From Gammaproteobacteria bacterium (lineage in GTDB: Bacteria; Pseudomonadota; Gammaproteobacteria; UBA5861): a DNA stretch of 64,000 nucleotides. A model generated the notes under the pieces. It saw nothing but the letters and a program-made list of their open reading frames with translations. It made no database searches and was not told where the DNA came from. The position numbers were made by a program, and so were the translations under genes. The stretch is from contig JAKSCV010000036.1 in assembly GCA_022360445.1 (NCBI GenBank), positions 1-64,000 on the forward strand, written 5' to 3'. This document shows, piece after piece, positions 2,412-23,479 of this stretch (position 1 is the first letter of the stretch; every line of letters begins with the position of its first letter).

Positions 2412-4175
2412 ATGTCGTACCACCGAATCAGCAAGAAACCAGCATCAACCATCGCTCCCAATTTACATGATTACGATGAATACCGGGCCCATTTTTCTTG
2501 GGATCAAGCCCGTGCGTCTTTGGATGGCCTCCCCGATGGTAAAGGGTTAAATATTGCCTATGAAGCTGTTGACCGGCATGTAAACGCCCTGCGGGGTCAT
2601 CACACGGCCATCCGCTGGCTGGATAACCAAGGTCATGCGCATGACTACAGTTATGCCGAATTAAAAAAGCGGACGAATCAGTTTGCTAACGCCTTACGGT
2701 CGCTGGGTATTGGTAAACGTGATCGGGTCTTTGTGCTAGCCCCGCGGGTGCCGGAGTTGTATATCACAGCGTTGGGTACTTTAAAAAATACCAGCGTTTT
2801 TTCGCCATTGTTTTCTGCCTTTGGGCCGGAGCCCATTCAGATGCGTATGGATATCGGTGCAGCGAAAGTACTGGTGACGACCACAAGGCTGTATCAGCGA
2901 AAAATCCAGGCCTTGCGTGATAAGTTGCCGAGTTTACAACATGTTATTCTCATTCGTGAAGACGAAAGCGCGGATCTTGTGGCAGATACTCACGACTTTG
3001 ATGAGCTGACCCAGGCCGTGCCGGATACGTTTGAGATTCCACCAACTGACCCGGAAGACATGGCCCTGCTGCACTTTACCAGTGGTACAACCGGTAAGCC
3101 CAAGGGCGCGGTTCACGTCCATAAAGCAGTCATGATGCACAATATGACAGCTCGACTAGCGCTTGATCTTCATCTTGAGGATGTTTTCTGGTGTACGGCG
3201 GACCCGGGCTGGGTCACTGGCACGTCGTATGGCATCATCGCGCCGCTGACCATTGGCGCCACCATGATTATTGATTATGCGGAATTTGATGCAGAGCGCT
3301 GGTACAACATCATTCAAGATCAGCGCGTCAGCGTTTGGTACACTGCGCCCACGGCTGTACGCATGATGATGAAAGCCGGGGAAGAAGTCATCTCCCGGTA
3401 CGATACCAGCAGCCTGCGTTTTATGGCGAGTGTGGGCGAGCCGCTCAACCCGGAGGCGGTTGTCTGGAGTGAATCGGCGTTTGGTTTACCTTTTCACGAC
3501 AACTGGTGGCAGTCTGAAACGGGCGGCATCATGATTTCCAATTACGCAGCCATGGACATCAAACCAGGCTCTATGGGGCGGCCGCTTCCGGGCATCGAAG
3601 CGGCAGTGGTCAAGCGCTTGAAAGACGGCGGGATTAAGATGATCGAAACGCCCAATACCCCTGGTGAACTGGCCCTAAAAACAGGCTGGCCATCCATGTT
3701 TCGTGGCTATCTGGGTGAAGAAGCGCGCTATCAGAAATGTTTTGTTGATGACTGGTATTTATCAGACGACCTCGTCTCGTGTGATGAAGAAGGCTACTTC
3801 TGGTTTATTGGCCGGGCGGATGATCTGATCAAATCATCCGGCCACCTTATTGGGCCCTTTGAAGTGGAAAGCGCCCTGATCGAACACCCCGCAGTTGCCG
3901 AAGCCGGTGTGATCGGGGTTCCGGACGCTATCTCGGGTGAAATCGTCAAAGCTTTTATCGTACCCAATGCGGGTTTTCAGGCCGAGGGCAGTCTCAAAAA
4001 ACAAATTCTGGGCCATGCGCGCAAAAAACTGGGGGTCGCCGTAGCTCCGCGCGACATTGAGTTCAGAAAGAATCTGCCAAAGACCCGCTCTGGAAAAATC
4101 ATGCGTCGCTTACTTAAAGCGCGAGAGCTGGGCCTACCCGAAGGGGATACATCCACCTTGGAGACAGATGAATGA
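2412..4175 (+). CDS. Acetyl-CoA synthetase-like acyl-CoA ligase (AMP-forming)
   Basis: This 587-residue adenylate-forming enzyme converts a short carboxylate, CoA and ATP into acyl-CoA, AMP and PPi. The phosphate-binding signature [10 protein letters not shown] is at 223-232, the A5-type WWQSETGG near 370, and the C-terminal [11 protein letters not shown] holds the catalytic lysine (K562) that is acetylated in acetyl-CoA synthetases. Its length matches the AcsA type rather than the 650-residue Acs type. AGGAG at 2401-2405 precedes ATG 2412. It is first in an operon with 2-oxoacid dehydrogenase genes, whose E1 alpha start overlaps its stop by 4 bp. Acetate is the likely substrate, but propionate or another short acid is possible. 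Confidence 0.85.
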
Positions 4176-5161
4176 CACCTATGACACCCGTCAGCCAGGC
4201 CCATGCGTTGGAACTGCTCCAGGGTATGGTTCGTATTCGGCGGTTTGAAGAAAAGTGTGCCGAATTGTACAGCGCCATGAAAATCCGTGGCTTTTTACAC
4301 CTCTACATTGGTGAAGAAGCCATTGCGGTTGGCGTGATGCAAGCGCTACGGTCAGAAGACTCTGTGGCCGCAACTTACCGTGAGCATGGCCATGCACTGG
4401 CCCGTGGCTTATCTATGCGCAGCATCATGGCTGAGATGTATGGCAAACTTGAAGGCTGCTGTCGTGGGCGGGGTGGGTCCATGCATTTATTCGATGCCGC
4501 CACACGTTTTTTTGGTGGCAGCGCCATTGTTGCCGGAGGTATTCCTCTTTCAGTAGGGCTTGCACTGGCGGATAAGCTGCAAGGTCGCGCCAACGTCAAT
4601 GCTTGCTTTTTTGGTGAAGGCGCTGCCGCTGAAGGCGAGTTCCACGAGTCCATAAATTTGGCCACCTTGTGGAAATTGCCGGTACTTTTCTTGTGCGAAA
4701 ACAATCGCTATGCCATGGGCACAGCACTGGAGCGGTCAGAATCGGAAACAGACATTCACCTAAAAGCACAGAGCTATGGCCTGAAATCAGAAGCCGTGGA
4801 TGGTATGGATGTCATCGCGGTGGAACAGGCCGCCCAGCGTGCGTGTGATGCCATTCGGAATGGAGAAGGCCCCTACTTTCTCGAATTTACAACATACCGT
4901 TTCCGCCCCCACTCCATGTTTGACCCGGAACTGTATCGGGAAAAGGCCGAGGTACACGCCTGGAAGGAAAAGGACCCCATCACATTGTTCAGCCAGAAAC
5001 TGCTGGTGGAAGGTCTGATCCGCGATGCGGATATTGCCCGTATTGAAGCCAATGTACAGGATGAAATCACCGTTGCGGTTGAATACGCCGAGGCCGGCCA
5101 GTGGGAAGCGGCTGAAGATCTAAAGCGCTATGTCTATTCCGAGAGGGGGCATCATGAGTAA
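4172..5161 (+). CDS. 2-oxoacid (pyruvate/acetoin-type) dehydrogenase E1 alpha subunit
   Basis: The 329-residue protein is a thiamine-diphosphate-dependent E1 alpha chain. The cofactor motif runs from GEG (148-150) to ENN (176-178), and the C-terminal loop contains [32 protein letters not shown]-like wording resembles pyruvate dehydrogenase, but GEG instead of GDG is the form seen in branched-chain E1 alpha, so the substrate is open: pyruvate, acetoin or a 2-oxoacid. With the next gene it forms the alpha2beta2 decarboxylase of a multienzyme complex in the cytosol. The start overlaps the preceding stop (ATGA), which implies translational coupling. Confidence 0.88.
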
Positions 5162-6164
5162 CCAGCGTGAGAGCGGTACGGTTGAAACCACGTACCGGGA
5201 AGCCATCCGTGCGGCCATCCGTGAGGCAATGTTAAAAGACCCCCGAGTCTTCCTCATGGGCGAAGACGTTGGCCGCTACGGGGGATGCTACGCAGTCAGC
5301 AAAGGTTTGTACGACGAATTTGGGCCTGAGCGTATCCGCGATACACCTCTGTCAGAGTCTGTTTTTGTTGGCACGGGCATCGGTGCGGCGCTTGGGGGCA
5401 TGCGCCCGATTGTTGAAGTCATGTCCGTCAACTTCAGCTTGCTGTGTATGGACCAGATTGTGAACAATGCTGCGACCATTCAACACATGTCCGGTGGGCA
5501 ATTTAACATCCCCCTTGTCATTCGTATGGCAACTGGAGCCGGTTTACAGCTAGCCGCGCAGCACTCGCACAGCCTGGAAGTGCTTTATGCGCATATTCCG
5601 GGCATTCGGGTGGTCGCGCCGGCAACACTGGAAGATGCACGTGGCATGCTGGCAACCGCGCTGGAAGACCCTGATCCGGTGCTTATTTTCGAACATGCTG
5701 GACTGTACAACCGGCCGGGCCAGATTGCAGTGGATGCCGGTGCGGTTGATATCGACCGGGCGGTGATTCGCCGCAAGGGAGAGGACGTCACACTCATTAC
5801 CTATGGCGGTTCGCTCTACAAAACACTGGATGCCGCTGCCGCGTTAGCGGAGCAGGGCATTCACGCAGAGGTGATTGACTTGCGGAGCCTCAGACCCCTG
5901 GATGAGGCGACATTACTTGCTTCCGTCCGCCGGACCCAGCGCGCTGTCGTCGTGGACGAAGGCTGGCGCAGTGGCAGCCTGGCGGCCGAGGTGATAGCGC
6001 GTATCAGCGAGCAAGCATTTTATGACCTGGATGCGCCCTTGGCACGGGTGTGTTCCGAGGAAGTGCCCATTCCTTATGCCAAACACATGGAGCAGGCAGC
6101 ACTGCCGCAAACACAAACGATCATCAACACCGTAAAAATGTGTTTTGGAGATCGCAATGACTGA
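5154..6164 (+). CDS. 2-oxoacid dehydrogenase E1 beta subunit
   Basis: The 336-residue protein is a transketolase-fold E1 beta chain with the expected [10 protein letters not shown] near residue 33, the central [20 protein letters not shown], and C-terminal transketolase domain VDEGWRSGS. It completes the thiamine active site with E1 alpha. The start chosen is ATG 5154, preceded by GAGAGGGGG and overlapping the E1 alpha stop by 8 bp; an upstream in-frame start at 5130 would put eight extra residues deep inside E1 alpha and is less likely. It has the usual length of the family. Confidence 0.88.
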
Positions 6165-7302
6165 GTTCCTGATGCCTTCATTGGGCGCGGACATGGAAGC
6201 GGCGACCGTTGTTGAGTGGCGGGTGAAACCGGGTGATGCCGTGAAGCGAGGCGACATTGTGGCGGCTGTTGAAACCGATAAAGGGATCATTGACATCGAG
6301 GTATTTGAAGAGGGCATTTTGCAGCAAATCCTGGTGCCAGTGGGTGAAAAAGTGAGTGTGGGCGCTGTCTTGGCGATTTTTAATGGTGCGGATCAAAAGT
6401 CATCTAAACCGTCCGCTGAGCCGCTTGAAAAAGAACAGCCAAAACCTGTGCTCGAATCGACTCAGATCAATCAAAGCACTGTGCCCACCCCCGCGTCAGA
6501 AAAAAGCACTCAACGTATTTCCCCTGCGGCTAAAAAACGGGCCAAGGCCCTGAGTGTTGATCTGGCCAATGTTAAAGGCACCGGTGCGCAAGGGGCAATT
6601 ACAACGGCGGATGTTGAGCAGGCAGCAGGCAATGCAAAGCCGGATGCGATGCGTCAAGCGATTGCGGCAGCCATGAGCCGTTCCAAGCAGGAAATCCCTC
6701 ATTATTATCTGGCTACGACCGTGGATATGACCGATACACTCGATTGGCTGGCAGAAAAAAATACCAACCTCCCGGTGCAAGCGCGGCGGGTTTATGCGGT
6801 GCTTTTAATCAAAGCCGTGGCGTTGGCGCTGGCCGAAGTGCCCGAACTTAATGGGTACTGGGTGGATGGGCAATTTAAATCCAGCAATAAGGTGAATATC
6901 GGCATGGCCATTTCCTTGCGGCAAGGGGGGCTGATCGCACCGGCTTTGCACGATGTGCGAGGCAAAACGCTGGACACCTTGATGGCTGAGTTCCGGGACT
7001 TGGTCAGTCGAGCGCGTGCAGGCCGGATCAGCCGAGCCGAGTTTACCGAAGCGAGCATCACCGTTTCCAGCTTGGGTGAGCAAGGTGTGGAAATGATGTA
7101 CTCCATCATTCACCCACCGCAGGTTGCTATTGTCAGTTTTGGGTCCGTTATTGAGCGGCCGTGGTGTGTCGATGGCGCTGTGGTACCGCGTAAACTCATA
7201 GACGTTTCCCTTGCGGCTGATCACCGGGCCAGTGATGGGCATCGTGGCGCTCTGTTTCTTAATCACGTCAACCAATATTTGCAACAACCGGAGTTGTTAT
7301 GA
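6157..7302 (+). CDS. Dihydrolipoamide acyltransferase (E2) of a 2-oxoacid dehydrogenase complex
   Basis: Domain order in this 381-residue protein is typical: a lipoyl domain (1-75) with the lipoylated lysine in ETDKG (K42), a linker rich in Pro, Glu and Lys, a peripheral subunit-binding domain (about 119-155, [16 protein letters not shown]), and a catalytic acyltransferase domain ending in [10 protein letters not shown] with H356 as the catalytic histidine. It passes the acyl group from E1 to CoA. There is one lipoyl domain only. ATG 6157 follows TTGGAG and overlaps the E1 beta stop. No dihydrolipoamide dehydrogenase (E3) is encoded nearby, so it would share one encoded elsewhere. Confidence 0.9.
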
Positions 7303-12861: not shown

Positions 12862-14094
12862 ATGGAGACAACGAATCACTTGCGTGGCAAATATGCCATC
12901 GTCGGGGTTGGTGAGACCGCGTACATTCGCGGCGCGGGGCGGACAACACGGTCTATGGCAACCGAGGCGATCAAACGGGCCATGGATGATGCCGGGCTTC
13001 AGCCGGGCGAAGTTGACGGCATGATGTCCTATTCACAGATGGATTCAACCCTGTCGACATTTGTGGCCGGAGACCTGGGATTACGGCTGAACTACTTCAT
13101 GGATGTCTGGGGTGGGGGGTCAAGTATCGAGGCCCTAATCGGCATCGCCACCGGTGTCATTGAAGCCGGCATGTGTCATACCATTGCTATCTTCCGGTCC
13201 ATGAACGGCTACTCCGGTATGCGCTTTGGCGGTACAGGAAAACGTGCGGCAGAGCCTCTGACGGGCGACCAGCTGCATGCCCGTGCTTACGGCTGGCAAA
13301 GTCCAGCACAAATGTTCAGCCTCTCCTTTATGCATCACATGTATCAATATGGTACGACGCCGGAACAGGTTGCCATGGTCAAAGTCGTGCATAGTGAGCA
13401 TGCCTCTAATAATCCTAAAGCGATTATGAAAAAGCGCGTGAGCGTTGAAGACGTGCTTAACAGCCGCATGATTGTGAAGCCGTTGCACTTATTGGACTGT
13501 TGCCTGGAAACGGACAACGGTACAGCCATCATTGTGACCAGCAAAGAGCGAGCCTATGATCTTAAGCAGCGCCCGGCTTTGATTCAGGCTGTTGTAGGGC
13601 GGTGTTCTAAACCCCGTTCTGATATGTACTACCAGCACGGTTCACTATCACAGGTGGCGGGGCACTACGCTAAGGATATTCTTTGGAAAAATGCAGACTG
13701 CCGGCCGGAAGACATCCATGTGACAGGCTCTTACGATGCGTTTACCTTCACCAGCCTGCTGCAATTCGAAGACTATGGCTTTTGTCAAAAAGGCGAGGGA
13801 GGAGAGTACGTCAGCAATGGCACCACTCGGCTGGGTGACAAACGGCCCAACAATACCAGCGGAGGGCACCTGTGCGAAGGTTACACACATGGTATCAGCA
13901 TGGTGATCGAAAACGTGCGGCAACTGCGTGGGGATGTTGACGACAGCTGCCCCATCGGGCCGGATGGCAAGCGCCAGCATACCCACGATTACCGGGAAGG
14001 CGGCTGTCGCCAGCAACCTGGTGTTGAACTCACGGCAAATCTAGGCTGGGCAACCCCCGGCACCGGGTCAGCCATGGTGATGAGAAAAGGTTGA
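12862..14094 (+). CDS. SCP2-thiolase-like lipid-transfer protein (probable retro-aldolase subunit)
   Basis: The 410-residue protein has a thiolase fold (AIVGVGETAYIRGAGRTT near the N-terminus; SGGHLCEGYTHGIS near residue 335). Where thiolases have the nucleophilic cysteine, this one has VWGGGSS (82-88), so it cannot form the usual acyl-enzyme. Cysteine-less SCP2-thiolases paired with a DUF35 protein, such as Ltp2 with the DUF35 part of ChsH2 in steroid side-chain degradation, act as retro-aldolases on beta-hydroxyacyl-CoA. The DUF35 partner gene follows 10 bp later. AGGAGGAAA at 12851-12859 precedes the start closely. The family is secure and the aldol reaction is inferred. Confidence 0.82.
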   Translation: METTNHLRGKYAIVGVGETAYIRGAGRTTRSMATEAIKRAMDDAGLQPGEVDGMMSYSQMDSTLSTFVAGDLGLRLNYFMDVWGGGSSIEALIGIATGVIEAGMCHTIAIFRSMNGYSGMRFGGTGKRAAEPLTGDQLHARAYGWQSPAQMFSLSFMHHMYQYGTTPEQVAMVKVVHSEHASNNPKAIMKKRVSVEDVLNSRMIVKPLHLLDCCLETDNGTAIIVTSKERAYDLKQRPALIQAVVGRCSKPRSDMYYQHGSLSQVAGHYAKDILWKNADCRPEDIHVTGSYDAFTFTSLLQFEDYGFCQKGEGGEYVSNGTTRLGDKRPNNTSGGHLCEGYTHGISMVIENVRQLRGDVDDSCPIGPDGKRQHTHDYREGGCRQQPGVELTANLGWATPGTGSAMVMRKG

Positions 14095-14104
14095 GGAGAA
14101 CATC

Positions 14105-14626
14105 ATGTCGATTAATACACACTACCTGGATATGCCCATTGCCATTGAAGACCTGGACCAGGAGAACCTGGCTTACTTTGAGCACTGTGCTAACCACCAG
14201 TTCCACCTGCAGGCCTGTACAGCTTGCCAGCAACTGCGCTATCCGCCCACAACCGCCTGCCCTTTTTGTGCGCATTTAGACTCAGAATGGCAACCGGTAG
14301 AAGGCAAGGGCACCGTCTGTTCCTATGAGGAAGTCCATCACGTCATCCAGCCTGCATTTAAACCGTTTTTGCCTTATCTGGTCCTTCTGGTTGAGCTGGA
14401 TACCCAAAAAAACCAGCCCAGGCCTGGCGATGCACTGCGCGTGATGGGCAACCTGACTGATCCGAAAGGCCGGTTAGTGGCGCCTGAGGTTGTGAAACAA
14501 GTGGGTATTGGCTCACGCGTCCGGATGGTTTTCACCGAGGTTGATCAAGGCATTGCCCTACCGCAGTGGACCCTGGATGAAACGGCCGAGCAGCCCGCCA
14601 AACCCTGGCGGTATCTCTACGAATAA
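14105..14626 (+). CDS. DUF35 OB-fold protein with zinc ribbon (partner of the thiolase-like protein)
   Basis: This 173-residue protein has a rubredoxin-like zinc ribbon with Cys38-X2-Cys41 and Cys52-X2-Cys55, followed by an OB fold (EGKGTVCSYEEVHHVIQP onward), the DUF35 architecture. Such proteins form complexes with SCP2-like thiolases and CoA hydratases and supply the zinc-stabilised CoA-binding surface. GAGGAGAAC precedes the ATG and the gene lies 10 bp after its presumed partner. It has the usual length of a free-standing DUF35, not fused to a MaoC hydratase as in ChsH2. Confidence 0.88.
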   Translation: MSINTHYLDMPIAIEDLDQENLAYFEHCANHQFHLQACTACQQLRYPPTTACPFCAHLDSEWQPVEGKGTVCSYEEVHHVIQPAFKPFLPYLVLLVELDTQKNQPRPGDALRVMGNLTDPKGRLVAPEVVKQVGIGSRVRMVFTEVDQGIALPQWTLDETAEQPAKPWRYLYE

Positions 14627-14639
14627 GTGCATTGACTAC

Positions 14640-14658
14640 TGCCTGATCGTATCGGGCA
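14640..14658. other. Hairpin between convergent genes
   Basis: TGCCTGAT (14640-14647) pairs with ATCGGGCA (14651-14658) around a CGT loop, eight pairs with one G-T. It lies between the convergent DUF35 and acyl-CoA dehydrogenase genes, but no T tract follows on either strand, so intrinsic termination is doubtful. Confidence 0.3.
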
Positions 14659-14756
14659 TGCTGCTATGCAAGATCGCTTGTCCATTACAGGAGCGGCCAG
14701 AAGGGCGGGCCTAACGGCTTGTGTGCGGCATGGTCACCGAAGAGGGTATAGGAGTG

Positions 14757-15905
14757 CTACGGGTGAATGCCCATTGAGCGGCTCACAATTTGTAGCATGA
14801 TCTCGCTCGCCCCTCCGCCAATAGCCGTTTGACGAAGGTCCCGATAGTAACGCGAGATGATATTGTCATTGAGGACACCTTGACCGCCCCAGTATTGCAG
14901 GCATTCACTCGGTACTTCTTTTGCAAGTTGGCCTGCAAGGTATTTGCCCATCGAAGTCAGGTTGCTGACATCCTGTCCAGAAACGTATTCTTCTGCCGCA
15001 CGGTAGGTGAGTGAACGCAGAGCCTCAATTTTGCACTTGAGCTCCGCCAGCTTGTAATGCACGACCTGGTTGTGCAAGACGGGTTTACCGAAGACGATCC
15101 TGTCTTTAGTGTATTCGATAGTCGCTTCAATCACTTCCTCAAGGTTCAGGCAGGTGCGTGCACACAAAAAAAGCCGCTCTTCCTGGAACTGTTTCATTTG
15201 ATAGATAAAGCCACGGTTTTCTTCACCAATCAGATTGCGCTGCGGAACACGAACGTTGTCGAAGAACACTTGGGCCGTATCCGATGAGCGCAGCACCATT
15301 TTGTCCAGCCGTTTGGAGAAGGAGACACCTTTTTGCTTGAGGGGAACGATAATCAGGGATTTGTTTTTGTGCGGGCCGTTTTCGGTGTCCGTATTGCAAA
15401 GCATGCACATCCAGTCGGCCTGAGTTGCGTTGGTAATCCACATTTTGCTGCCATTGATAACGTAATCGTCGCCATCTTTTTTGGCAAACGTTTTCATGCT
15501 GGCAACGTCTGATCCGGCGTTCAGTTCCGAGACGCCAATACAGCCGACCAGCTCGCCCCGAACCGAAGGAACAAGATATTCCGCGCAGAGTTCATCACTG
15601 CCGTGTTTAGCCAGTGCCGGGGTGCACATATTCGTTTGTACCCCGATTGGAGTGGAAATACCCACGGCTGGGATATGTCCCAGCGCTTCAGCAAAGGCGA
15701 CTTCATAAGAATAATCCAGCCCCAGTCCGCCGTATTTTTCTGGCTTGTTAATCCCAAGAAGGCCGGCATCACCCAATTTTTTGAACAGCTCATGAGCCGG
15801 GAAAATGCCTTCCGCTTCCCAGTCATCTAAGTTAGGGCGAATTTCCCTGTCGATGAATTTGATGGTTGTCTCCTGGAGTGCGCGGTGCTCTTCTGTCAGT
15901 ATCAT
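14757..15905 (-). CDS. Acyl-CoA dehydrogenase (isovaleryl/citronellyl-CoA dehydrogenase-like)
   Basis: The 382-residue flavoenzyme oxidises an acyl-CoA to the 2-enoyl-CoA. It has the family signatures GCIGVSELNAGSD (121-133) and the flavin/substrate segment WITNATQAD (156-164). At the usual C-terminal catalytic position it has AIGGGASEIM rather than a YEG glutamate; the catalytic base is probably Glu243 in FQEERLFL, as in isovaleryl-CoA and long-chain dehydrogenases. This pattern fits branched substrates and is like AtuD of acyclic terpene use. It is co-translated with the upstream SDR gene (4-bp overlap). The exact substrate is not shown. Confidence 0.87.
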   Translation of the reverse strand: MILTEEHRALQETTIKFIDREIRPNLDDWEAEGIFPAHELFKKLGDAGLLGINKPEKYGGLGLDYSYEVAFAEALGHIPAVGISTPIGVQTNMCTPALAKHGSDELCAEYLVPSVRGELVGCIGVSELNAGSDVASMKTFAKKDGDDYVINGSKMWITNATQADWMCMLCNTDTENGPHKNKSLIIVPLKQKGVSFSKRLDKMVLRSSDTAQVFFDNVRVPQRNLIGEENRGFIYQMKQFQEERLFLCARTCLNLEEVIEATIEYTKDRIVFGKPVLHNQVVHYKLAELKCKIEALRSLTYRAAEEYVSGQDVSNLTSMGKYLAGQLAKEVPSECLQYWGGQGVLNDNIISRYYRDLRQTAIGGGASEIMLQIVSRSMGIHP

Positions 15906-16831
15906 GATGGGTTTTCCTCGGATTGTTTTTTCAGGTCGGCCAGATCTTCGTCTGAGCCAATATAAGCTTCACGTAAAAATTCAGGGACACCGTCCAAGTG
16001 AAAGCCTTCGTAAGCAGTAGATTTGCGATGGTCGGGCACGGGCCACATGGATTTTTCCAGTGGTAAACCACCATCCACGCCAATAATCTGGCCTGTGATG
16101 TAGTTGGCCGCCGGGCAAAGCAGGAAAACAATGGCGGCAGAAATCTCGGATTCGGTTGCGAAGCGTTTTAGTGGCACGTCCCGATAACGTTTTTTCATCC
16201 GCGCCTTGAATGCCTCTGGATATGTATCCAGACCACTGGAGGCTACGGGGCCAGGAGCAATCGCATTGAGGCGGACGCCGGAATGTGCCCACTCCAGTGA
16301 AGCTGTTTGGGTAAAGTTTGCCACACCGGCACGCGCTGCGCCTGTGTGGCCCATTTTGGGCATGCCAAACCAGTAGGCAGCAATCACATTGATGACGGCG
16401 CCGCCGTGGTCACACATCCACTGGTTGTAGACTTCACGCGACACAAAAAAAGTACCGTATAGATTATTGCGGATGACCGCATCCCAACCTTTGTCTGAGA
16501 TGTCTTTTAACGGGCTGGGGAACTGTCCACCGGCACTGTTGACAAGTGCGTCAATACGTTTTTCTTCAACGACAATGTGCGTCACAACTTTGGCGACCTG
16601 TTCACCATTGCGGATATCACAGCTGTGCCAGCTTGAGGCAAAGCCATCAGCTTCAAGTTCGGCCGCTACTTTTTTCAGCTTTTCTTCTTTGCGGCCCACC
16701 AACACAGGCTTGGCACCCAGTGATGCTACTTCATGTGCGCAACAGCGGCCAATGCCACTGCCACCTCCGGTGATCACAATGACCTGGTCTTTAAGCATAT
16801 CTGGCCTAAAGACAGACTGGTACTCTCGCAT
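15902..16831 (-). CDS. Short-chain dehydrogenase, peroxisomal 2,4-dienoyl-CoA reductase-like
   Basis: The 309-residue Rossmann protein has the cofactor loop TGGGSGIG (21-28), the NSAGG strand, and APGPV after strand six. The classical YxxxK catalytic pair is absent: the aligned region reads MGHTGAARAGV, which matches the 2,4-dienoyl-CoA reductase branch and bacterial homologues such as AtuG. These enzymes use NADPH to reduce dienoyl-CoA esters made during unsaturated fatty-acid or terpenoid oxidation. The C-terminus extends about 40 residues past the core. It overlaps the acyl-CoA dehydrogenase start by 4 bp, so the two form an operon. Confidence 0.82.
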   Translation of the reverse strand: MREYQSVFRPDMLKDQVIVITGGGSGIGRCCAHEVASLGAKPVLVGRKEEKLKKVAAELEADGFASSWHSCDIRNGEQVAKVVTHIVVEEKRIDALVNSAGGQFPSPLKDISDKGWDAVIRNNLYGTFFVSREVYNQWMCDHGGAVINVIAAYWFGMPKMGHTGAARAGVANFTQTASLEWAHSGVRLNAIAPGPVASSGLDTYPEAFKARMKKRYRDVPLKRFATESEISAAIVFLLCPAANYITGQIIGVDGGLPLEKSMWPVPDHRKSTAYEGFHLDGVPEFLREAYIGSDEDLADLKKQSEENPS

Positions 16832-17931: not shown

Positions 17932-18238
17932 CTCATAATTGTTGGCAGTGAGCTGGCCGCAGTTAGAGGACTGTTGTACTGAAATTGAAGGCCTGCTCGC
18001 TCCCAAAAGTCCATGGTTTGAGCGAACTTGTGATAGAAATCTCAAGTACACATTTCTCTTTGTCGAACCCTGATCTAGATCAATATGTTACTGAGGCGAA
18101 GTCTTAGACTGATTGGTTTTCAGCATCATGCCTGGAACACCTGAGTTAAGGCTTTGCGCGTGACTGATTTTATCTTCTATTCTATAAAATAAAGCAGACA
18201 TCTATGGATAGACTGCGACAGCCAGGAGGTAAGTAAAC
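17932..18238. other. Intergenic region upstream of the sugar-type operon
   Basis: No gene is seen in these 307 bp. The FNR-like palindrome at 18070-18083 is the only notable motif, and a ribosome site (CAGGAGG, 18224-18230) closes the region before the Gfo/Idh/MocA gene. Confidence 0.45.
18070..18083. promoter_or_regulatory. FNR/Anr-like operator, one mismatch
   Basis: CTGATCTAGATCAA matches TTGAT-N4-ATCAA except at the first base and contains the exact palindrome TGATCTAGATCA. It lies 155 bp before the Gfo/Idh/MocA start and may control the five-gene operon. It echoes the perfect site at 2309. Binding is inferred. Confidence 0.4.
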
Positions 18239-19273
18239 ATGAGCGAACCACTGAAAATAGGCATTATTGGCCTGGGTAAGATGGGCGGCATCCGCGCCAA
18301 GACCATTCGTGAGCATGATGACACCGTTTTGGTGTGCGGCACGGACCCCAACCCTCCGGCCAAGGGTTATGAAGACATGGAAATTGTGCCGGACTATCAA
18401 GCCGTGATTCATGCGGATGTTGACGCCGTTGTGGTGTGTACGCCGAATCGTTTCATTCCCGACGTTGTCGAAGCGGCACTGGACGCCGGAAAGCATGTCT
18501 TTTGTGAAAAGCCGCCGGGCCGAAACATGGCGGATATTGAGCGGATCATGGCGGCTGAACAGCGCAACCCCGGGTTGGCGCTCAAAGTGGGTTTTAATCA
18601 CCGTTACCACTACGGCATTCTGGAGGCGAAAAAAATCGTCGACAGTGGAGAGTATGGCAAGATTCTGTGGATGCGCGGGGTGTACGGTAAAGCCCAAGGG
18701 TCCGGTAATCCCAACGAGTGGCGCAATAGCCCGCAGCTCGCCGGAGGTGGCATTTTGTTTGATCAGGGCATTCACATGCTGGATTTATTTCGTCACTTTT
18801 GTGGCGACTTTACCGAAATCAAAAGCATGTGCACCACAGCCTTTTGGGATGTGCCACAGGAAGACAACGCCTTCGCTCTGTTGAGAGACGACGCCGGGCG
18901 CATCGCGATGTTGCACAGCTCATTCACCCAGTGGAAGCACAAATTCTGTCTTGAAATCTATATGGAAGACGGCTATGTCATGGTCGATGGGATGCCCTCA
19001 TCGACGCGCAGTTATCGCGATGAATGGATCATTCACGCACGCAAACACACCGGCTACGCCATTGGCAACCCGCATGAAAACGCCACTTTCTGCAATACCG
19101 ATCCATCATGGGACATGGAAATGGCGGAGTTTATCGACTGCATTCGCACGGGCAAACCGGTACAGAATGGCACCTCGCGCGATGCTTACGAAGTGATGAA
19201 ACTGGTCTTCGGTATTTACGATGCAGACGACAGCTTCACCGCGCCACCCGAAATTCAAACGCAAAACGGGTAA
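18239..19273 (+). CDS. Gfo/Idh/MocA-family oxidoreductase
   Basis: The 344-residue protein has the N-terminal NAD-binding fold (GIIGLGKMGG, 8-17) and the family motif CEKPPG with catalytic Lys91, followed by the C-terminal substrate domain with DQGIHMLDL, whose histidine is the usual catalytic partner. Relatives oxidise or reduce sugars, inositols, sugar lactones or sugar phosphates. It opens a five-gene operon; the next gene starts 6 bp after its stop. Together with the lactonase two genes on, it may oxidise a pyranose or sugar phosphate to a lactone. The particular substrate is not visible. Confidence 0.85.
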   Translation: MSEPLKIGIIGLGKMGGIRAKTIREHDDTVLVCGTDPNPPAKGYEDMEIVPDYQAVIHADVDAVVVCTPNRFIPDVVEAALDAGKHVFCEKPPGRNMADIERIMAAEQRNPGLALKVGFNHRYHYGILEAKKIVDSGEYGKILWMRGVYGKAQGSGNPNEWRNSPQLAGGGILFDQGIHMLDLFRHFCGDFTEIKSMCTTAFWDVPQEDNAFALLRDDAGRIAMLHSSFTQWKHKFCLEIYMEDGYVMVDGMPSSTRSYRDEWIIHARKHTGYAIGNPHENATFCNTDPSWDMEMAEFIDCIRTGKPVQNGTSRDAYEVMKLVFGIYDADDSFTAPPEIQTQNG

Positions 19274-19279
19274 CGCGAC

Positions 19280-20224
19280 ATGGCAGACAGTACACCCATC
19301 GCCGTGACGTCCCGCTCGTTCAGTCGCCACCCAGTGCTGCGGGCGGAGCTACTCGAACGTTATTCCAATGTCCGGTTTAACGACGAAGGCGTATCCCTCA
19401 GCGGTCAGGCACTGATCGATTTTGCCCAGGGCCGCAAGAAACTCATTACCGCACTGGAGACCATCGACGAGGCGTTTCTGGCCGGTGTGCCGGAGCTGGA
19501 AGCCATCGGCAAGTACGGCGTCGGCACCGATATGATCGACAAGGCCGCGCTGGCGCGTCACGGCGTGCGCCTGGGTTGGACTGGCGGGGTCAATCGCCGG
19601 TCTGTGTCCGAGCTGGTGATTACCTTTGCCATCTCATTGCTGCGCCACGTGCCTAGGTCCAACCTCGAAATCCGCAACGGCGAGTGGAAAAACAACAAGG
19701 GCCGCCAATTGTCCGAACGCACCGTCGGCATCATCGGTTGTGGCCACATCGGCAAAGATCTGACGCCCCTTTTGAGAGCCTTTGGCTGCACGGTGTTGGC
19801 ACACGATATTCTTGATTTCCCGGAGTTCTACGCTGACCATCAGGTAGAAGCTGTGAGCCTGGAAGAACTGCTCCAGCGGTCGGATATCGTCACGCTGCAT
19901 GTCCCGTTGGACGACAGTACCCGTAATCTGTTGTCGTCGGAACGCTTGGCATTGATGAAACCCGATGCCTTGTTGATCAACGCGGCGCGCGGTGGTCTGG
20001 TCGATGAAGCCGCACTCAAGGCGATGCTCATCGACGGACGCTTGGCTGGCGCTGGGTTTGATGTCTTTGCCATTGAGCCGCCCGAGGATTACAGCTTGAT
20101 GCAACTGCCGAATTTTCTCGCCACGCCTCACATTGGCGGCAGCTCCGAAGAAGCCATTCTGGCGATGGGGCGCTCAGCCATTCGCGGGTTGGACGAAAAC
20201 GCCATTCCCGACGTATCTGTATGA
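19280..20224 (+). CDS. D-2-hydroxyacid dehydrogenase (SerA-like)
   Basis: This 314-residue NAD-dependent dehydrogenase has GIIGCGHIGKDL as nucleotide loop, SDIVTLHVPLDDSTRNLL, NAARGGLVDEAAL (substrate Arg region), and TPHIGGSS with the catalytic histidine. It interconverts a D-2-hydroxyacid and a 2-oxoacid. GVGTDMIDKAALARHGVRL near residue 75 is of the 3-phosphoglycerate dehydrogenase type, but no ACT domain follows. Its stop overlaps the lactonase start by 4 bp. In this operon it may reduce or oxidise a sugar-acid or a small product of the aldolase. Confidence 0.83.
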   Translation: MADSTPIAVTSRSFSRHPVLRAELLERYSNVRFNDEGVSLSGQALIDFAQGRKKLITALETIDEAFLAGVPELEAIGKYGVGTDMIDKAALARHGVRLGWTGGVNRRSVSELVITFAISLLRHVPRSNLEIRNGEWKNNKGRQLSERTVGIIGCGHIGKDLTPLLRAFGCTVLAHDILDFPEFYADHQVEAVSLEELLQRSDIVTLHVPLDDSTRNLLSSERLALMKPDALLINAARGGLVDEAALKAMLIDGRLAGAGFDVFAIEPPEDYSLMQLPNFLATPHIGGSSEEAILAMGRSAIRGLDENAIPDVSV

Positions 20225-20901
20225 CAGTGAACGAATGCCCATTTGCAGATATCGAAGCCGCGGCAACAGCACTTGCGGCCGATTTGGCCACAACTCTGCG
20301 CACAGCCATTGATGCGCGAGGAAGCGCGGTATTGGCCGTGTCAGGTGGGCGCACACCGGCGCATGTGTTTCAGCGCTTGCGTGATGAGCCGCTGGATTGG
20401 GGTCGCGTCACGGTGACGCTGATCGACGAGCGCTGGGTACCCCCAACGCACGCGGACAGCAACGAAAAATTAGTACGCGACCATCTGTTACAAGGGCTTG
20501 CGGCCAAGGCAACGTTTATTCCCTTGTACGGCGGTGAGGCGTCTCCGATGGCCGGTCAGCCAGCCTGTGAAGCACGCTTGGCGAAGCTGGCGCAGATTGA
20601 TGCGGCGTACTTGGGTATGGGGCCGGATGGGCATTTTGCCTCGCTGTTTCCCGGCGACGCGGCGCTGGATGTGCGCGACGGATGTTGCGTTGCCGTGCCT
20701 GAAACACCGCAGCGAGTGGCGCGCATGAGCCTCACGGCACCGCTGATTTGTGCCGCCCGACACCTGTGTCTGCTGTATGCCGGTGACGACAAGCATGAGG
20801 TCTATCAGCAGGCGCGGCAGCCGGGTGATTATCACGAGTTGCCGCTGCGCTTGTTGTTTGACCATGCCCAAGGGCCGGTCGAAGTTTTGCGGGTGGCTTA
20901 A
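20221..20901 (+). CDS. 6-phosphogluconolactonase-like lactonase
   Basis: The 226-residue protein has the three signatures of 6-phosphogluconolactonase: SGGRTPAHVFQRL, LIDERWVPPTHADSNEKLVR and LGMGPDGHFASLFPGD. These hydrolyse a phosphosugar lactone. There is no zwf or edd/gnd neighbour; it lies inside an operon of a Gfo/Idh/MocA dehydrogenase, hydroxyacid dehydrogenase, aldolase and SIS isomerase, so its natural substrate may be a different phosphosugar lactone. ATGA overlap with the gene before indicates coupling. Family call is strong; the gene symbol pgl is withheld because of context. Confidence 0.85.
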   Translation: MTVNECPFADIEAAATALAADLATTLRTAIDARGSAVLAVSGGRTPAHVFQRLRDEPLDWGRVTVTLIDERWVPPTHADSNEKLVRDHLLQGLAAKATFIPLYGGEASPMAGQPACEARLAKLAQIDAAYLGMGPDGHFASLFPGDAALDVRDGCCVAVPETPQRVARMSLTAPLICAARHLCLLYAGDDKHEVYQQARQPGDYHELPLRLLFDHAQGPVEVLRVA

Positions 20902-20965
20902 TCAAAACGATCACAAACGACGATTCCTCTAACCCAATTCTATTCACACACTGGAGCATCTGCTG

Positions 20966-21757
20966 ATGAGAAAAAACACAGTCAAGGAAATCTGGCAAAG
21001 CGGTGGTGCGGTACTGAACGGCTGGTGTTCCATTCCCAGTTCGTTCTCTGCCGAAATCATGGCCCACCAAGGCTTCGATTCGATCACCATCGACATGCAA
21101 CACGGCTTGGTTGACTACCAAACCGCAACGACTATGTTGCAGGCGATTTCCACCACTTCGGTGATTCCGTTCACTCGCGTGCCATGGAATGACCCCGGCT
21201 TTATCATGAAAGCGCTGGATGCCGGCTCCTATGGCATTATCTGCCCGATGATCAATACCGTCGAAGAGGCGGAAAAACTCGTGGCCGCGTGTAAATATCC
21301 GCCGGTCGGATTCCGCAGCTTTGGCCCGATCCGCGCCAAATATTACGCCGGTGGCGCCACGCACGGCGGCGGCGATTACCACAACCATGCCAATGACGAG
21401 ACGCTGGTGATTCCACAAATCGAAACCCGTGAAGCCATTGCCAATCTTGACGACATTCTGCAGGTGCCCGGCATCGGCGGCATTTACGTCGGGCCTTCCG
21501 ATTTGGCAATGGCACTCGGTTCGGAACCGCGTAAAGGCCAAAATGACCCCAACGTCGTTGAGGCGCGCAAAACCATTCTCGAAGCCTGCAAACATCACGG
21601 CATTCCGGCGGGCATTCACACCAACTCCACAGACGTTGCAGTCAACATGATTAAACAGGGCTTTCAGCTCACCTCTGTCCAAAGCGACGACCGTTTCCTC
21701 ATGGCTATGGCCAAGCAGGAAGTCGGCGCGATTCGCAAAGCGCTCGAAGACAATTGA
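20966..21757 (+). CDS. HpcH/HpaI-family class II aldolase
   Basis: The 263-residue barrel protein matches the HpcH/HpaI aldolases, which cleave 4-hydroxy-2-oxoacids to pyruvate and an aldehyde. IDMQHGLVDYQ (catalytic His), GFRSFGPIRA, IPQIETREA (metal Glu) and VGPSDLAMALG (metal Asp) occur in family order. It starts at ATG 20966 after CTGGAG. No 2-keto-3-deoxy acid dehydratase is encoded here, so the 2-oxoacid must be made another way. It is 64 bp after the lactonase and 10 bp before the SIS gene. Confidence 0.85.
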   Translation: MRKNTVKEIWQSGGAVLNGWCSIPSSFSAEIMAHQGFDSITIDMQHGLVDYQTATTMLQAISTTSVIPFTRVPWNDPGFIMKALDAGSYGIICPMINTVEEAEKLVAACKYPPVGFRSFGPIRAKYYAGGATHGGGDYHNHANDETLVIPQIETREAIANLDDILQVPGIGGIYVGPSDLAMALGSEPRKGQNDPNVVEARKTILEACKHHGIPAGIHTNSTDVAVNMIKQGFQLTSVQSDDRFLMAMAKQEVGAIRKALEDN

Positions 21758-21767
21758 GGATCATGTG

Positions 21768-22388
21768 ATGACGTTTCCCGACAACAAATTCAGCCACATC
21801 AGCGAGTACGCCACCGCGTATTTCAACGAAGTTACCCAAGCATCCGCAACGGTTGATGGCGAAAAACTTCAGCAAGCGGCGGATATTCTGACCCAAGTTT
21901 ATTCCGTCGGTGGGCAGGTGTACTCCTGCGGCAACGGCGGTTCGGCCGCCATCGCCAACCATTTGGTTTGCGACCATTGCAAGCTGGTCCAAACTGACAC
22001 AGATCTGACACCCCGTATCGTCTCTTTGAGCACCACCGTGGAGATGATCACTGCGATTGGTAACGACATTTCCTACGACGAAGTGTTTGCCTACCAGCTC
22101 AGCTCATTAGCCAAACCCGGTGACGCGCTGATGACCATCAGTTCATCCGGCGACTCGCCGAATATTATCCGCGCCATTGAAGTGGCGAAAGACGTGGGCA
22201 TACCCGTGATCGCTATGTCCGGCTTTACCGGTGGCCGCTCGGCCAAAATGGCTGACGTCAGCCTGCATGTGGATGCGAATAATTACGGCGTCATCGAAGA
22301 TGTGCATCAGTCACTCATGCATTTGCTGGCCCAGTACGTCCGCCAGGCGCACATGGGCGAGGATGTGATCAAACAACGCAAGTTTTAG
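21768..22388 (+). CDS. SIS-domain sugar isomerase, GmhA-like
   Basis: The 206-residue protein is a single SIS domain. SCGNGGSAAIANHLVCDH and the later ISSSGDSPNIIRAIEVAK are the phosphosugar-binding loops of phosphoheptose isomerase (GmhA) relatives. Start ATG 21768 is preferred over the GTG directly before it; GAGGA lies about ten bases upstream. The context (catabolic-looking operon, no other heptose genes) argues against lipopolysaccharide heptose synthesis and for isomerisation of another phosphosugar. No kinase gene is present. Confidence 0.82.
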   Translation: MTFPDNKFSHISEYATAYFNEVTQASATVDGEKLQQAADILTQVYSVGGQVYSCGNGGSAAIANHLVCDHCKLVQTDTDLTPRIVSLSTTVEMITAIGNDISYDEVFAYQLSSLAKPGDALMTISSSGDSPNIIRAIEVAKDVGIPVIAMSGFTGGRSAKMADVSLHVDANNYGVIEDVHQSLMHLLAQYVRQAHMGEDVIKQRKF

Positions 22389-22459: not shown

Positions 22460-23434
22460 TCACTCTAAAATGTGTTGGTTTTTTACTGTGCTGTGATCAA
22501 TCGCCTCGTTTCTGAGTACAGACAATATATTTTTCGCTGCGCCCATACCCATGTTCGTAAGTGATAAGTCCGATGAGCCGCCAACATGCGGTGTGATGAT
22601 GACATTGTCCCGTTTCAGTAACGGGTGGTCGGCGGGCGGTGGTTCTGTAGTTAAGGTATCCAACGCGGCACCGGCAATGTGCCCAGTTTGCAGGGCGTTG
22701 GCAAGATCCTGTTCTTCAATTATGGCGCCCCGTGCTGTGTTGATGAGGTAAACACCGCGTTTCATCCGTGCAATGTTATCGGCATTGATCAGCCCGGTGG
22801 TTTCAGGTGTGAGCGGGCAATGCAGGCTGATGATATCGGATTTTTCATAGATGACGTTCCATGAGTCGACCTGGCTTGCATGAGCGGGCAGGTCCATTTT
22901 TTGCTGAGAGCGGCGGCAAACCAGGGCACTCACACCGAAGGGTTCCATGAGTTGGAGAAGCCGTTTTGCAATGGGTCCGTAGCCGATCAGGCCAATGGTT
23001 TTGCCTTTAAGCTCCAAGCCAGCATAGCTTTTTTTATCAAAGGTGCCTTTTTTGACACGTGTGTTTTCAAATGGGATATCGCGTGTTAATGCGAGGATGA
23101 GCGCCAAGGTGTGTTCCGCGACGGACTCGAAGTTGGCGCCGGGTGTGAGCATAACGGGAATGCTCAACGATGTGGCATGGTCCACATCAATATTGTCCAG
23201 CCCTACGCCGTGTTTACAAATGACTTTGAGTGATGGGGCGGCGTTTTGCACATCTGGTGTGATTTTTCCTTGACGAACAATCAGTGCGTGGGGGTCAAAG
23301 GCGGCTATTTTGGCTGCAAGCTCTTCCGGTGTGTCTTGTGGGGTCCCTTGCGCCAGGGTGCAATGGTTGTTTTCCAGAAATTGTCGGGCGACTTCGGAAA
23401 TGCCCGAGCCTGTCATAAAAACTCGAAAGTGCAT
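22460..23434 (-). CDS. D-2-hydroxyacid dehydrogenase (phosphoglycerate dehydrogenase-like)
   Basis: This 324-residue enzyme has CKHGVGLDNIDVDHATSL, the nucleotide loop GLIGYGPIAKRLL, NTARGAIIEEQDLANAL and TPHVGGSSD with catalytic His. It oxidises D-2-hydroxyacids or reduces 2-oxoacids. It resembles the dehydrogenase at 19280 only at family level, so the two are not recent duplicates. ATG 23434 is preferred; an in-frame TTG four codons earlier lacks a better ribosome site. It is convergent with the sugar-type operon and may act in the same pathway. Confidence 0.82.
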   Translation of the reverse strand: MHFRVFMTGSGISEVARQFLENNHCTLAQGTPQDTPEELAAKIAAFDPHALIVRQGKITPDVQNAAPSLKVICKHGVGLDNIDVDHATSLSIPVMLTPGANFESVAEHTLALILALTRDIPFENTRVKKGTFDKKSYAGLELKGKTIGLIGYGPIAKRLLQLMEPFGVSALVCRRSQQKMDLPAHASQVDSWNVIYEKSDIISLHCPLTPETTGLINADNIARMKRGVYLINTARGAIIEEQDLANALQTGHIAGAALDTLTTEPPPADHPLLKRDNVIITPHVGGSSDLSLTNMGMGAAKNILSVLRNEAIDHSTVKNQHILE

Positions 23435-23479
23435 GTGCTTATCCAATCATCAGTGAGAAGTCATCTTATATCGCATGTT

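Follow-up and report, generated by a model that had tools for sequence, protein, structure and literature searches.

The locus examined here raises the question of which reactions are carried out by five closely packed carbohydrate-type genes (A to E) that match no recognised pathway. The genes lie on one strand of a 64,000-nucleotide stretch (the window, taken at its full length) of contig JAKSCV010000036.1 from a Gammaproteobacteria bacterium (assembly GCA_022360445.1), and a sixth gene, F, converges on them from the other strand. Comparison of genomes suggested that A to F constitute one metabolic module that has probably spread horizontally. The gene content, the conservation between phyla, the linkage of F to the other genes, and the retention of most catalytic motifs were observed; from the sequences we infer, with slightly less than even confidence, reactions, a substrate, and a direction by which the six enzymes would oxidise and split a phosphosugar without a dehydratase.

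Gene content, conservation, and probable transfer of the module

The genes and their family assignments were as follows.
18224-18229, + strand: AGGAGG, a Shine-Dalgarno-like sequence 5' of A, read from the sequence
18239-19273, + strand: A, Gfo/Idh/MocA dehydrogenase, Pfam PF01408/PF22725 (GFO_IDH_MocA)
19280-20224, + strand: B, D-2-hydroxyacid dehydrogenase, Pfam PF02826/PF00389 (2-Hacid_dh)
20221-20901, + strand: C, 6-phosphogluconolactonase-family lactonase, Pfam Glucosamine_iso (6PGL), TIGR01198
20966-21757, + strand: D, HpaI-type class II aldolase, PF03328 (HpcH_HpaI)
21765-22388, + strand: E, SIS-domain GmhA-like phosphosugar isomerase, PF13580 (SIS_2)
22460-23446, - strand: F, second D-2-hydroxyacid dehydrogenase, PF02826 (2-Hacid_dh)

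The coordinates, the Pfam matches, and the spacing (a 6-bp gap between A and B, a 4-bp overlap of B and C, and gaps of 64 and 7 bp between C and D and between D and E, respectively) agreed with the original prediction of five packed one-strand genes of these families. An alternative ATG start of E at 21768 agreed with the starts of E homologues, and a consensus scan for promoters and terminators gave nothing above chance level. When the proteins were compared with curated equivalog models, C scored above its own cutoff, and A, B, D, E, and F were under every cutoff, so that the substrates of these five are not readable from the family names.

When A was used as a query against 84,980 species genomes, relatives with 76-81% identity were found in metagenome-assembled genomes (MAGs) that bear the labels Deltaproteobacteria, Calditrichaceae, KSB1, and Kiloniellaceae, the window's own genus being recovered as well, and in these MAG loci the five genes A to E were clustered wherever the contigs permitted. 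Phylum searches added five carriers, three of which grouped with the KSB1 genomes (G336, G352, and G353) and two with the Calditrichaceae genome (G389 and G390). The MAG labelled Deltaproteobacteria belonged to the same phylum as the Calditrichaceae genome, and these placements indicated that the module spans three phylum-level groups. The recurrence of the same set in KSB1, Calditrichaceae, and Kiloniellaceae MAGs ruled out a chance grouping of A to E, which the genome-neighbourhood search suggested in the original prediction was meant to check. All five genes showed 57-84% identity with those of the window in eight of the nine readable carriers outside the genus; the ninth (G353) was without C only, and C was the least conserved of the five across carriers. 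Identity with the window was 74-81% for A in other phyla and 74-78% for B in carriers. In the Kiloniellaceae copy (L017/L069), the genes were reordered and both strands were used, with all five still together.

The 274 genomes searched from the window's class contained no A orthologue with more than 42% identity outside the window's genus, and an order-level search around the Kiloniellaceae carrier gave no carrier besides itself. The GC content of the B-D part of the operon was 57-59%, compared with about 48-54% in the flanks. This rise in GC, which acquired DNA would be expected to show, together with the lack of orthologues elsewhere in the class and the order, suggested horizontal transfer. 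The deep nodes of the module trees were poorly supported, so that the donor and the direction of transfer cannot be named. A scan with D gave no match indicating viral carriage, and the relatives of A, B, D, and E on plasmids were all less than 60% identical, with no close orthologues.

The position of F, converging at 22460, was given correctly in the original prediction, which had left it outside the five-gene set as a bystander; its distribution showed that it is an integral member of the module. When 63 genomes were searched for an F orthologue at E values up to 1e-70, one was present in nine of the 12 carriers and in none of the 51 non-carriers (Fisher p = 9e-9). F adjoined E in every case where the contigs show it: homologues with 55-56% identity were convergent with E at five loci (L016, L019, L064, L066, and L092), and in two genomes where F was seemingly unlinked (G352 and G390), the F contig bore E or the tail of E, convergent with F, at the contig end. 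In G001, the third genome in which F seemed unlinked, a contig end again accounted for this, as the contigs of E and F each ended about 300 bases past the gene. The motif was GYGPIA in the F of the window and GxGxxG in other copies. The Kiloniellaceae genome (G277) was without an F orthologue and had within its cluster a non-homologous gene of the Ldh_2 family (malate/L-lactate dehydrogenase; L017:2978-4006), a possible replacement of F; a non-homologous dehydrogenase at this place is expected if the aldolase releases a keto acid. As a separate observation, a sucrose synthase gene lay near F in two KSB1-group genomes (L064:16303-18702 and L104:744-5367), and a sucrose-phosphate synthase-like protein was seen by eye in the same regions.

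Proposed reactions of the six enzymes

The order suggested in the original prediction, in which a phosphosugar is isomerised, oxidised to a lactone, hydrolysed, and finally split by the aldolase, was still the most sensible reading of the families. In the proposed route, E would be the isomerase between a ketose phosphate and the aldose phosphate that A would oxidise to a lactone with NAD, and C would hydrolyse the lactone to a phospho-aldonate. B would oxidise the (R)-C2 hydroxyl of the phospho-aldonate to form a 2-keto-aldonate phosphate, which D would cleave, releasing hydroxypyruvate and leaving an aldose phosphate shortened by three carbons, namely glyceraldehyde 3-phosphate from a hexose or erythrose 4-phosphate from a heptose. 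In the last step, hydroxypyruvate would be reduced by F to D-glycerate, which would restore NAD and draw the unfavourable reaction of B forward. The B/F pair would stand in for the dehydratase of the Entner-Doudoroff pathway. The association of an aldolase with two D-2-hydroxyacid dehydrogenases, and with no dehydratase, suggested that B makes the aldolase substrate by C2 oxidation and that F reduces the product. The sequence would be an oxidation of the PdxB type and then a retro-aldol reaction, chemistry that is established for these families. The original prediction had assigned a hydroxyacid dehydrogenase to a cleavage product, which fits F acting after the aldolase but not B, which would act before it. 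It had also listed the dehydratase as absent; no dehydratase, including Edd, was seen in any module copy (no genome-wide search was made), but this need not be a gap, since B could make the keto group.

The motifs EKP and DQGIHMLD of A were (nearly) invariant in operon homologues and in relatives from polysaccharide clusters, and the predicted fold of A was near those of levoglucosan and L-glucose dehydrogenases. We propose that A is an NAD-dependent, lactone-forming aldose-phosphate 1-dehydrogenase, the cofactor being suggested by Asp36, which ends the second strand. C scored 173.9 bits against TIGR01198, above the curated cutoff of 124.45; within the operon clade, its DGHT motif was replaced by DGHF or DGHV, and the change to DGHF may alter specificity. 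B kept the catalytic Arg, Glu, and His residues and GxGxxG, and is a putative phospho-aldonate 2-dehydrogenase. PdxB (4-phosphoerythronate dehydrogenase), a member of the same superfamily, also oxidises C2 of a phosphorylated aldonate, whereas B is shorter, scored far under the PdxB model cutoffs, and has an aldolase and a lactonase as neighbours. For F, we propose the function of a hydroxypyruvate reductase.

The best solved relative of D was the hydroxypyruvate-accepting SwHKA of Sphingomonas wittichii RW1 (PDB 6R62; 40% identity), which is likewise a metal aldolase of the HpaI family with a non-leucine residue at position 210. SwHKA takes hydroxypyruvate as a donor with aldehydes, and this ability is tied to aromatic residues in place of a conserved leucine (PMC10099721). 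The substrates used in the study of SwHKA were hydroxypyruvate and simple aldehydes; D differs from SwHKA by an insertion and by a His at the F210 position, which was found in D of all operon copies in an alignment that left out the aldolase of locus L044 (see below). D was below the cutoffs of both the HpaI model TIGR02311 (4-hydroxy-2-oxoheptanedioate aldolase; 165.2 bits, cutoff 368.8) and the GarL model TIGR03239 (2-dehydro-3-deoxyglucarate aldolase; 143.8 bits, cutoff 406.75). We propose that D is a hydroxypyruvate-forming aldolase.

The module resembles the Entner-Doudoroff pathway (Zwf, Pgl, Edd, and Eda) in converting a sugar phosphate to a lactone, followed by hydrolysis and aldolase cleavage, but has a Gfo/Idh protein for Zwf, an HpaI protein for Eda, and the hydroxyacid dehydrogenase pair for the dehydratase. 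The logic of dehydrogenase, lactonase, and HpaI-type aldolase is common with the sulfo-Entner-Doudoroff pathway, in which an SMP-30 lactonase and a dehydratase take part; neither was in the module, where the lactonase is of the 6PGL type. There was no Eda-type 2-keto-3-deoxy-6-phosphogluconate aldolase in the cluster, whose aldolase is HpcH_HpaI, and neither the window genome nor its congener contained a match to Zwf (PF02781). The statement that no recognised pathway fits survived the tests made.

The 6-phosphogluconate dehydrogenase Gnd (PF00393) was found neither in the window genome nor in six of the eight other carriers tested. Among the first nine carriers tested, eight were without Zwf, seven without Gnd, and seven, including the window genome, without both. 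In eight Zwf-less carriers, again including the window genome, no gene other than the C of the operon scored above the pgl cutoff. Since eight of the 12 carriers lack Zwf, C in these genomes would act on a lactone from another enzyme, for which A is the candidate. G353, in which the module is without C, had Zwf, Gnd, and a Zwf-linked Pgl elsewhere in the genome, and no recognisable remnant of C was found in the 0.3-kb gap of its module; this is a single case.

Weighing the alternatives

Several observations weighed against the proposed split, the first of them from D. This aldolase showed 52-56% identity with aldolases found mostly in galactarate operons, compared with 40% for SwHKA, and galactarate-operon aldolases are expected to release pyruvate. 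Two of these HpaI/GarL-like relatives (L039 and L040; 53-56% identity) also had His at the F210 position, and they adjoin a galactarate dehydratase and a tartronate semialdehyde reductase, whereas D has no dehydratase partner. The shared His is therefore only permissive for hydroxypyruvate chemistry and is weakened as a proof of hydroxypyruvate use. The nearness of D to these aldolases argued for an Entner-Doudoroff-like pathway with an unlinked dehydratase, in which D would cut a 2-keto-3-deoxy-aldonate phosphate to give pyruvate together with an aldose phosphate, and side products would be the substrates of B and F. We regard such a pathway as unlikely: a dehydratase has joined no copy of the module despite gene loss, replacement, and reordering, and the two aldolase-linked D-2-hydroxyacid dehydrogenases would be left unexplained.

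The remaining opposing points concerned the carriers and the distant relatives of B. Zwf was missing in eight of 12 carriers and in 41 of 66 non-carriers (p = 0.52), with no enrichment. Because same-phylum non-carriers lack Zwf about equally often, its loss does not explain carriage of the module, and the statistical argument for the module as a plain replacement of the oxidative pentose phosphate pathway was dropped. G389 and G390 kept both C and Zwf. Pgi was found in carriers, which makes E unnecessary for reaching glucose 6-phosphate and a function of E as a plain glucose-6-phosphate isomerase unlikely. Neither F nor any recognised substitute was found in G274 and G336, all of the named carrier records were MAGs, and the hydroxyacid dehydrogenases of the two distant gene sets described below were only about 28% identical to B.

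The substrate of the proposed split may also be a heptose. The predicted fold of E was GmhA-like (target TM about 0.80-0.88), and GmhA (sedoheptulose 7-phosphate isomerase) was the best match of E by both sequence and structure. E and GmhA have the two active-site histidines in common (His65 and His180 in E), but the identity was about 30%, the Glu and Gln of GmhA were replaced by Asp69 and Glu177, respectively, and the score of E against the gmhA model TIGR00441 (120.6 bits) was below the cutoff of 209.45. Sedoheptulose 7-phosphate would then be converted through a heptose 7-phosphate and a heptonate to hydroxypyruvate and erythrose 4-phosphate, and the relatives of E and A that sit in GDP-heptose-like clusters are consistent with this. 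However, the family of C acts on 6-phosphohexonolactone. In the manno-heptose formed by GmhA, C2 has the S configuration, which does not suit a D-2-hydroxyacid dehydrogenase; only if E produced the C2 epimer would this objection fall. We consider the heptose version, which is a sub-case of the dehydratase-free split and not an exclusive rival, rather improbable.

Relatives of A and E also occurred in surface-polysaccharide clusters with cytidylyltransferases, and two sets made up of the same five families were found.
L036:8920-14021 (Leisingera plasmid): SIS protein, Gfo/Idh protein, D-2-hydroxyacid dehydrogenase, inositol-monophosphatase-family phosphatase, and cytidylyltransferase (CTP_transf_3)
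L038:2907-7819 (Paenibacillus replicon): the same five families

Both sets lay in surface-polysaccharide-like regions, and their relatives of A and E showed 46-49% and 36-49% identity, respectively. The sets make chemical sense if the SIS protein, the Gfo/Idh protein, and the dehydrogenase give a 2-ulosonate phosphate, which would lose its phosphate before being activated with CMP; the sets probably make a CMP-activated 2-ulosonic acid, perhaps by an undescribed CMP-ulosonate pathway. By analogy, the A-F module would be an ulosonate-forming core (the chemistry of E, A, and B) to which a lactonase, an aldolase, and a reductase had been added. These clusters favoured a biosynthetic module that forms an ulosonic acid or another surface-polysaccharide precursor, with the aldolase working in the condensation direction. 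Such a role seems very unlikely, as no conserved cytidylyltransferase, phosphatase, or polysaccharide glycosyltransferase was beside A-F, and lactone hydrolysis would commit the route to degradation.

Neighbouring genes and significance

Another genome of the window's class contained a cluster (L044:5918-11214) of a B relative (54% identity), a Gfo/Idh protein, a short-chain dehydrogenase/reductase (SDR), an HpaI aldolase, a cytidylyltransferase, and a dehydroquinate-synthase-family protein; the cluster may encode a pathway to a cyclitol or an ulosonate. Upstream of the operon (window 12862-16831) there were thiolase-like, DUF35-like, acyl-CoA dehydrogenase, and SDR genes, an apparently unrelated acyl-CoA cluster of which only the SDR was compared with family models. 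At window 2412-7302, an acyl-CoA synthetase gene and, after it, genes for E1-alpha, E1-beta, and E2-like proteins (a 2-oxoacid or acetoin dehydrogenase complex) were recognised by eye. In G274, the gene immediately downstream of the module (L014:4692-7499) encoded a single protein with both NACHT and FGE-sulfatase domains, which resembled defence-type NACHT proteins.

No description of the pathway was found in the open-access literature searched, a scope outside which most subscription journals fall. We suggest, somewhat more tentatively than the split itself, that A-F represent an undescribed glycolytic route transferred from phylum to phylum, with a non-dehydrating split of a phospho-aldonate and a Gfo/Idh first step not homologous to Zwf. 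If so, a dehydratase-free branch would join the short list of bacterial routes that split sugar phosphates. A physiological role would be suggested for hydroxypyruvate-using HpaI aldolases, which have so far been studied mainly as biocatalysts, and bacteria without a visible glucose-6-phosphate or 6-phosphogluconate dehydrogenase would have a possible route of sugar oxidation.

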